This document shows, one piece after another, positions 24,561 to 31,953 of a stretch of DNA of 36,301 nt (within the stretch, counting starts at the first letter, position 1; the number at the start of each line of letters is the position of its first letter). Origin of the DNA: a virus; the IMG/VR virus record IMGVR_UViG_3300021438_000044, positions 1 to 36,301 of that record. One strand, given 5' to 3'. Below the pieces are notes generated by a model that searched no databases, was not told the DNA's origin, and saw nothing but the letters and a program-made list of their open reading frames with translations. The position numbers were made by a program, and so were the translations under genes.

Positions 24561-24768
24561 ATATAATGAAGCAGGAAAAGGATCAGCACCAAAGCTAAAG
24601 CAAAAAAGTCTTTACGATGAGAATTACGAAAGAATATGGGGCAATAAGACTAATAAGCTTTATGAAGACAGGTATTATGATTCTGATGATTCATCTAACA
24701 CTTGGGATGAAGATCGTATGGATATAATTGGTATCAACGGAAACACAGGTGATCATTATATTAAATAA
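24553..24768 (+). CDS. Small acidic hypothetical protein
   Basis: This 71-residue protein is rich in Asp, Tyr and Asn (for example YEDRYYDSDDSSNTWDEDRMD) and probably partly disordered. It has a good ribosome site (AGGAATAC) inside the HNH gene. It is the last gene of the leftmost plus-strand block. No function is recognised. Confidence 0.6.
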   Translation: MSKYNEAGKGSAPKLKQKSLYDENYERIWGNKTNKLYEDRYYDSDDSSNTWDEDRMDIIGINGNTGDHYIK

Positions 24769-24790: not shown

Positions 24791-24820
24791 TCAAGAAATT
24801 TCAAGAATTTTCAAGAAATA
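24791..24820. repeat. Three tandem 10-bp repeats (TCAAGAA core)
   Basis: TCAAGAAATT, TCAAGAATTT and TCAAGAAATA follow one another with an exact 10-base period, one helical turn. They lie in non-coding DNA just before the convergent terminator. Such phased sites often bind a protein on one face of the DNA. The role is unknown. Confidence 0.75.
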
Positions 24821-28465: not shown

Positions 28466-28509
28466 GTTAGTTTCCTTAAAAGTTTCGTTAATAAAAATGT
28501 GTTGCTAGG

Positions 28510-28518
28510 TGTTATTAT
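28510..28518 (+). promoter_or_regulatory. Extended -10 promoter of the right-hand plus-strand genes
   Basis: TGTTATTAT is an extended -10 (hexamer 28513-28518) on the plus strand. It lies exactly over the -10 of the divergent minus promoter. The flanking GTGTTATWATGC is shared with the promoter at 20121. Transcription would start near 28525, ahead of the VRR-NUC gene. Confidence 0.5.
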
Positions 28519-28541
28519 GCCTATCTAAATATAAAAAACAA
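28514..28541 (-). promoter_or_regulatory. Promoter of the minus-strand operon
   Basis: On the minus strand, TTGTTT (28541-28536) and CATAAT (28519-28514) are separated by 16 bases, a sigma70-type pair. The start of transcription would fall near 28507, giving a leader of about 40 bases with the ribosome site AAGGAAAC. Confidence 0.6.
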
Positions 28542-28571
28542 CTATTTTTAACATTTAATAGCAAATATTTT

Positions 28572-28975: not shown

Positions 28976-29626
28976 ATGCACTATTATCAATACAACATTG
29001 CAGATTACCGCAAAGACACAACACATTTAACCCTGTTAGAGCATGGTTGTTACAGGCAGTTACTTGATCAATATTATCTTGATGAAAAGCCATTGCCTTT
29101 AGAAGAAGATAAACTTTTTAGATTATTTAATGCGAGGTCAGATGATGAAAAGAATGCTATTAAAAATGTCCTTAATGATTTTTGGACTAAAACTGAAGAT
29201 GGTTATGTTCAAGGAAGGTCTAAAACTGAAATTGAACTGTATAAAGACCGACTAGATACTGCATCCAAATCTGCAAAGAAGCGATGGGACAAGGGTTCTA
29301 TGCCAACCCAATGCCAACCCAATGCCAACCCATTGCTAACCACTAACCAAGAACCAATAACCAATAACTTAATAACCATTAACCAATATACATCTAAAGA
29401 CTTTGATGTCTTTTGGGAAGCGTATCCAAAGAAAAAGAAAAAGGAAGACGCTAGAAAAGCTTGGAATACGACAAGACCTAATATAGAAAATGTGCTTAAA
29501 GCTTTAGAATGGCAGAAACAATCGCCTGAATGGTTTAAGCAGGGTGGACAGTTCATTCCGTATCCCGCTTCATGGATACGATCTCATTCGTGGGAAGATG
29601 AAAAGTCTGTATCAGTAACATTTTAG
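28976..29626 (+). CDS. Replication initiation protein, DUF1376 (lambda O-like organisation)
   Basis: This is a 216-residue protein. The N-terminal domain (1-95, HYYQYNIADYRKDTTHLTLLEHGCYRQLL) is DUF1376, a winged-helix-like domain of phage replication proteins. A low-complexity linker (about 107-137) is encoded by the iterons. The C-terminal part DVFWEAYPKKKKKEDARKAWNTT is the domain often found at the end of such proteins. It would bind the origin in its own gene and recruit the helicase loader. The ribosome site is AAGGAAAC. Confidence 0.82.
   Translation: MHYYQYNIADYRKDTTHLTLLEHGCYRQLLDQYYLDEKPLPLEEDKLFRLFNARSDDEKNAIKNVLNDFWTKTEDGYVQGRSKTEIELYKDRLDTASKSAKKRWDKGSMPTQCQPNANPLLTTNQEPITNNLITINQYTSKDFDVFWEAYPKKKKKEDARKAWNTTRPNIENVLKALEWQKQSPEWFKQGGQFIPYPASWIRSHSWEDEKSVSVTF
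29300..29394 (+). repeat. Iterons inside the replication gene: candidate origin
   Basis: Three exact tandem copies of ATGCCAACCCA (29300-29310, 29311-29321, 29322-29332) are followed by a degraded copy. After that comes an AT-rich tract with repeated AACCA[AT] words, nearly free of G on this strand. The 11-base period is not a multiple of three, so the copies are read in three frames. The layout (iterons, then AT-rich DNA, in the linker of an O-like gene) mirrors the lambda origin. Confidence 0.7.
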
Positions 29627-31363: not shown

Positions 31364-31525
31364 ATGATATTACATGAGTTTATGGAAGGTAAAAGAAAAG
31401 CAACTGTGCATGAAGAAGAAGGAAAGTTTATTGTTTATTATTATTTGAATAATGAACTTGTTAAAGTAAAGCCTGCTTACGATGAAGAAGATGCTGAAAT
31501 ATTAGCAGAAGATTGGGTTTTATGA
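31364..31525 (+). CDS. Small acidic hypothetical protein
   Basis: This is a 53-residue protein starting MILHEFMEGKRKATVHEEEG and ending in an acidic helix (DEEDAEILAEDWVL). AAAGGATAAG is its ribosome site and its stop overlaps the next start (ATGA). Not recognised. Confidence 0.6.
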   Translation: MILHEFMEGKRKATVHEEEGKFIVYYYLNNELVKVKPAYDEEDAEILAEDWVL

Positions 31526-31953
31526 ATCAAAACGACAAGACAAGCTTCAAGTCCATGATGGACACAGTTACATCTTTATATCAAAAGCCTAATCTTGATA
31601 TTGATACTTTAAGGGTTTGGTTTCATAAACTTGATAAGTATGAATTTAATGTAGTTACCAAAGCTTTTGATAAGTGGGTTGATAATAATAAATTTATGCC
31701 TACTGTATTTGACATTCTACAACTCTGCCGGGAAAAGCCTGTTGAGTTTGTCCAACTCCAAGCACCTAAACTAAACAATCAGCAAAACAAGGCACAGGCA
31801 GATAAGCTATTGGCTTTAATTCAGGAAAAGATGCCACAGGAAGAAAAGAAGTTAAATGATATGCGAGCATGGGCAAGACGCATTATGGCTAATCCTAAAA
31901 ACTATTCTGCTATATCTTTAAAGACTGCCAAGGAAGCGTTGAGTGCGAAATGA
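31522..31953 (+). CDS. Possible helicase loader / replication accessory protein
   Basis: This is a 143-residue protein from the ATG at 31522, coupled by ATGA to the previous gene. The N-terminal half (MMDTVTSLYQKP, then VWFHKLDKYEFNVVTKAFDKWV and FMPTVFDILQLCR) resembles the small helical domain of phage helicase loaders and inhibitors (G39P-like, lambda P-region proteins). The C-terminal part is helical and basic. With an O-like initiator upstream, a loader role is sensible but not proven. Confidence 0.55.
   Translation: MNQNDKTSFKSMMDTVTSLYQKPNLDIDTLRVWFHKLDKYEFNVVTKAFDKWVDNNKFMPTVFDILQLCREKPVEFVQLQAPKLNNQQNKAQADKLLALIQEKMPQEEKKLNDMRAWARRIMANPKNYSAISLKTAKEALSAK

Follow-up and report, generated by a model that had tools for sequence, protein, structure and literature searches.

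A candidate phage replication origin within a DUF1376 gene, built of 11-bp and 7-bp tandem repeats

Why would a protein-coding gene of a virus carry the same 11-bp sequence three times in a row? In the stretch of viral DNA analysed here (36,301 nucleotides, called the window below), ATGCCAACCCA is found in three exact head-to-tail copies inside a DUF1376 gene, where the original prediction had placed a candidate origin of replication. From the sequence anatomy of the locus, we infer that the region 29300-29388 is very probably a phage replication origin embedded in its own initiator gene.

The DUF1376 gene of the window and its repeats

The gene (28976-29626, plus strand, as are all the features of this locus described below) encodes a YdaU-type protein of 216 amino acids, a putative replication initiator. 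It belongs to DUF1376: PF07120 is matched over its full profile length (E 1.9e-25), with a score of 89.5 bits against a curated cut-off of 30.1, and the presumed DNA-binding N-terminal domain (profile positions 1-86 of 86) covers 28979-29236, within the first 87 residues. A short basic "tail", SKSAKKRWDKGS, follows directly at 29264-29299. The whole protein matches phrog_9327, "primosomal protein" (E 3.9e-60), while the C-terminal domain (FDVFWEAYPKKK...WIRSHSWEDE, 29402-29623) matches phrog_270 and phrog_9474, both "replication initiation protein". The corresponding C-terminal region of the relative L207 shares 53-58% identity with phage proteins annotated as replication or O proteins, whose N-terminal parts are different. 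An O-type domain was not found at the N-terminus, where Pfam gives DUF1376 only, and a PDB sequence search returned no credible homologue of the DUF1376 domain. The gene can therefore be called O-like, as it had been, at its C-terminus but not at its N-terminus.

The nearest cultured relative of the window is Methylophilaceae phage P19250A (79% identity). Helicase or loader genes are frequent neighbours of DUF1376 genes: a gene for a DnaB-type helicase comes next downstream at 8 of 58 loci, and at other loci this position is occupied by a P-like or DnaC-like loader. In the window, no helicase gene lies directly downstream, and a candidate helicase loader was detected about 2 kb away at 31513-31953 (phrog_2289, "helicase loader", E 9.5e-10; PF11417 at E 0.021, a weak match below the cut-off). 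Upstream, a divergent intergenic region (28466-28568) separates leftward recombination genes (ERF, YqaJ) from rightward replication genes (VRR-NUC, DUF1376) and is likely an early regulatory region. A 10-bp tandem repeat, TCAAGAAATT, was also found in 2.9 copies (89% matches) at 24791-24819, just right of a gene ending at 24768. The GC skew of the window tracks gene orientation and was uninformative, giving neither an origin signal nor a site-specific feature.

The three 11-bp copies noted earlier map to 29300-29310, 29311-29321 and 29322-29332, and a degenerate fourth iteron, TTGCTAACCAC, was recognized at 29333-29343. ATGCCAACCCA occurs nowhere else in the window, where every other site has at least two mismatches, and an Rfam search gave no match. 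Since 11 cannot be divided evenly by 3, the reading frame rotates from copy to copy (codon phases 0, 2 and 1), and the resulting peptide, MPTQCQPNANP, has different residues for each copy, in agreement with the expectation drawn from the 11-base period. Chance is excluded as the source of this repeat. None of 60 Markov-simulated genomes contained an exact three-copy tandem repeat with a period of 7-30 and, with the protein held fixed and the codon usage of the window, an exact 3 x 11 bp repeat arose in about 3 per million draws, a rarity due to the use of the rare codons ACC, CCC and GCC by the iterons. The window copies are non-palindromic, as had been noted; this description fails for most relatives, whose iterons have palindromic cores (ATGCGAACGCA, GTTNAAC).

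The fourth iteron overlaps the start of a second array, TAACCAA in 7.3 copies (29337-29388, detected by TRF), which we propose as an unwinding or single-strand loading element. The tract following the iterons had been described as AT-rich and G-poor. The second term is accurate, as 5 G against 32 C in 95 nt is the most negative GC skew among all 95-nt stretches of the window; the first is weak, since the tract has 69% A+T compared with 65% for the window as a whole.

Periodicity and stop-codon avoidance across the family

Searches of viral contigs, cultured phages and bacterial genomes led to a sample of 235 DUF1376 genes, which dereplication reduced to 168. The 7-bp array itself had served to find 88 of these, and the 80 found through protein similarity were therefore also analysed apart. 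Across the 168 genes, repeated linker hexamers peak at lags of 7, 14, 21, 28 and 35 and of 11, 22, 33 and 44, with lags 10, 12 and 13 at background. Such a hexamer is found at lag 7 in 148 genes, at lag 11 in 103, at lag 14 in 148 and at lag 22 in 92; the corresponding numbers for a protein-preserving null obtained by synonymous resampling are 41, 25, 31 and 19 (z 16-27). In the protein-selected set, lag 7 was found in 66 of 80 genes and lag 11 in 45. The order of the arrays is nearly invariant, the 11-bp array lying upstream of the 7-bp array in 120/122 genes (both sets pooled), with centres 56-58 bases apart. The same linker design is present in the bacterial prophage loci L406, L408 and L404 and in a gene of an Acinetobacter plasmid. 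This mobilizable plasmid, pSWBY1 (L424), carries a DUF1376 gene with a GGRP tail (see below), matching motifs and the 7-bp array; the gene adjoins one for an ATP-binding protein, and the plasmid also has RepM.

In a 7-bp array, every third unit would read TAA in frame, and the T is lost exactly there. Among the genes selected by protein, AACCA is preceded by T in 91% and 84% of units in the two harmless codon phases and in 0% where TAA would form; A or G takes its place in this dangerous phase, and the recurrent peptide TNHKPLTxNQEP is a consequence of this loss. T thus appears to be favoured at the DNA level and surrendered only where the protein would terminate. The array is not universal, as a chain of at least three AACCA units was found in 46 of the 80 protein-selected genes. 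A scan of viral contigs gave at least 120 matches; among the 120 listed, 113 lie in the sense orientation in DUF1376 genes and none antisense in such a gene, the remaining 7 comprising 4 that resemble contig-edge fragments of DUF1376 genes and 3 perfect microsatellites. The same scan of bacterial genomes placed 118/120 matches outside DUF1376 genes, nearly all of them perfect or near-perfect heptamer repeats, so that its diagnostic value holds for viral contigs and does not extend to bacterial genomes. Among the latter (L283-L402), cyanobacteria and Bacteroidota commonly contain TAACCAN heptamer microsatellites, which are often repeated many times.

The prediction that conservation of the linker repeats acts on DNA rather than on protein is strongly supported by the period, the frame rotation, the stop avoidance and the swapping of motifs (see below) across the 168 genes. 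Both the synonymous null and the way in which stops are avoided lead us to reject repetition at the protein level.

Copy number, tails and exchange of iterons

If the repeats act as DNA units, their number should change in steps of 11, a check proposed with the original prediction. Indeed, the nine contigs of the window clade (L003-L011) contain 3, 4 or 6 units with a constant start and a strict 11-bp register; going from 3 to 6 units adds 33 bp and leaves the frame intact. In their linkers, the iterons are kept and the TAACCA array is replaced by a plain A/T-rich run (TTAATAACTTAATAACTAAACAA). The sister clade of P19250A (L001, L012-L018) has a different motif, AACGGGCGTT, at the same place, with 11- and 21-bp spacings. 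Whereas the domains of the window and P19250A are 87% identical, their iterons share 3% of 5-mers, and the tail has been swapped along with the iterons (KKRW in the P19250A clade, GRxSA in the window clade); the 7-bp array and C-terminal domain of the P19250A clade resemble those of the window. In a third group (L020, L022, L023), a CCCAGTGG-type motif is repeated six times, also at 11-bp spacing. In the record of Vibrio phage 1.183.O (L076:1861-1890), a CRISPR spacer match is marked within the linker repeat region of the DUF1376 gene.

The link between tail and iteron extends to the whole family. Four tail types were found after the domain, each with its own motif: GGRP with ACCCA-type iterons, RW with ATGCGAACGCA, AG-x-ASA with GTTNAAC and E-R-E-x-KR with CACGAA-CGTGC. 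The tail type predicts the iteron motif in 153 of 160 genes, the tail types and motif lists having been defined on the same data as the measurement. With domain clusters (60% identity; single-linkage and therefore broad) counted once, the match is 23/27 (permutation p < 1e-4). Within three of these clusters, tails of several types occur, always paired with the motif that matches them, and the pair has therefore been exchanged repeatedly. The window is an RW-type, its motif ATGCCAACCCA being a drifted form of the palindromic ATGCGAACGCA; a simple motif count scores it as GGRP-like because of its CCCA, and it is thereby counted among the 7 mismatches.

In RW and GGRP genes, the motif of the class also clusters a second time, within the coding sequence of the domain, 90-165 bases upstream of the tail. 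This cluster is 11-periodic, has z scores of 16 (RW) and 24 (GGRP) against the protein-preserving null, and accounts for the lag-11 signal seen in the N-terminal control region. Examples are L117 and L149 (RW) and L089 and L102 (GGRP), in which, for example, ATGCGAACGCAT encodes MRTH and AACCCAAGTGGTT encodes TQVV. The protein segment at this place is more variable between classes than the sequence on either side of it: with flank identity matched, identity is 0.28 for RW against GGRP genes and 0.48 among genes of the same class. In the AG-x-ASA types this signal is weak, and no second cluster is present in the E-R-E-x-KR types, in the window or in its clade.

A proposed origin, its alternatives and its relatives

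How could such a locus work? We infer three steps, in which protein binds to the iterons, the strands open and the helicase is loaded. The tandem 11-bp iterons would be bound by the DUF1376 protein, probably by means of the basic segment right after its domain; being spaced by about one helical turn, they would present themselves on the same face of the DNA. The assembled complex would strain and open the adjacent G-poor 7-bp array, and the opened array would serve as a strand-specific, single-stranded landing site, where the replicative helicase would be placed by the O-like C-terminal domain together with a loader.

Other functions can be proposed for the same repeats. The 11-bp array could be an operator through which the DUF1376 protein represses or times its own operon, replication beginning elsewhere; the iterons do lie within the gene, and they vary together with a segment of the protein, as is usual for operators and their repressors. 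This is improbable, however, as the motifs of each class concentrate in the linker (in two classes also in the domain) and show no such concentration over the 600 bases that precede the gene, an operator has no need of a fixed order with an adjoining 7-bp array, and the C-terminal part of the protein resembles replication initiators. It is a shade less probable again that only the 11-bp repeats belong to an origin and that the 7-bp tract acts as RNA, either as a C-rich unstructured site for Rho loading (rut-like) or as a processing site. The sense strand of the array is indeed C-rich and G-poor with CC about every 7 nt, but TAACCA is conserved letter by letter, including the T where the frame permits, beyond what a YC-rich rut site needs; moreover, the tract sits in translated mRNA and holds a fixed place after the iterons. 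Finally, neutral minisatellites born of replication slippage in a tolerant, disordered linker are scarcely credible: the variable copy number among close relatives and the bacterial heptamer microsatellites described above fit this reading, but slippage leaves unexplained the single period of 11.0 common to unrelated motifs, the motif that follows the tail class, the invariant array order, the change in every third unit precisely where a stop would arise and the matching clusters within the conserved domain. A selectively neutral minisatellite was rejected on the exact periods of 7 and 11, the fixed order, the stop avoidance and the synonymous null.

The replication origin that we favour had been likened to that of lambda, and the comparison holds in part. 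As in lambda O/ori-lambda and its relatives in Stx phages, iterons followed by an easily opened tract lie in the middle of the initiator gene, as judged from sequence anatomy, and annotated O proteins have C-terminal domains related to those of the DUF1376 family. The number of iterons varies in those phages too, with four in lambda and six in Stx phages, and the A+T-rich tract beside the lambda iterons can be bound by the initiator as a single strand (PMC7466680). The N-terminal domain here is DUF1376, however, and the roughly 20-bp inverted-repeat iterons of lambda were not found: the 11-bp period is family-wide and the window copies are non-palindromic. In addition, the 7-bp array stands in for the simple A+T-rich tract, the iteron motif and short basic tail swap together, and in some DUF1376 classes the motif clusters again within the sequence that encodes the domain. 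In the O-type relatives that we examined, the repeats are spaced by 23-24 bp, in contrast to the 11 bp with rotating frame seen here. L418, L419 and L421, phage genes annotated as or presumed to be involved in replication initiation, have a related C-terminal domain; their linkers carry other repeats, spaced by 23-24 bp, and lack the 7-bp array. The best explanation is that the window origin would work on the lambda O/ori plan without being a member of that group by domain, iteron size or repeat design.

Two further systems offer analogies. RepB of pMV158 binds three tandem 11-bp and two tandem 7-bp repeats (PMC4753449), the same two repeat lengths as at the DUF1376 loci. This is a likeness and not membership. 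RepB nicks plasmid DNA near its origin, and the pMV158 repeats are not described in that paper as lying inside the initiator coding region. The 7-bp array can likewise be compared with the DnaA-trio and DnaD element of B. subtilis oriC and with the 13-mers of oriC and RK2, in which a strand-specific, repeated single-stranded motif beside the initiator sites guides helicase loading. DnaD of B. subtilis uses a strand-specific TnnT element, and the complement of AACCA contains TGGT, which fits this core (PMC10201434). The proteins and the host group differ from those of the DnaD/oriC systems, and single-strand use of the 7-bp array is suggested by analogy.

A literature search, with most subscription journals outside its reach, found DUF1376 rarely mentioned and never joined to the phrase "origin of replication". 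It is a finely balanced proposition that DUF1376 proteins form a large, unrecognised class of phage initiators whose origins are written in their own gene. Such origins would combine two elements: iterons of 11 bp, placed in the linker and, for at least two classes, in the domain coding sequence as well, and a strand-specific loading array of 7-bp units that yields to the protein mainly by avoiding stops. Specificity would reside in a short swappable cassette of basic peptide and iterons. Since the basic segment and the iterons that it would read are encoded side by side, one recombination event would change both.

If the origin reading is correct, DUF1376, a family of unknown function present in phages of many hosts, would have a function as a replication initiator, and the origins of DUF1376 phages could be located within about 100 bp by sequence alone. 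The locus would also be a clean example of codon choice being overruled by DNA sites within a gene. The tail-iteron cassette, if real, would provide a natural set of matched initiator-origin specificities in which to study the evolution of such pairs.
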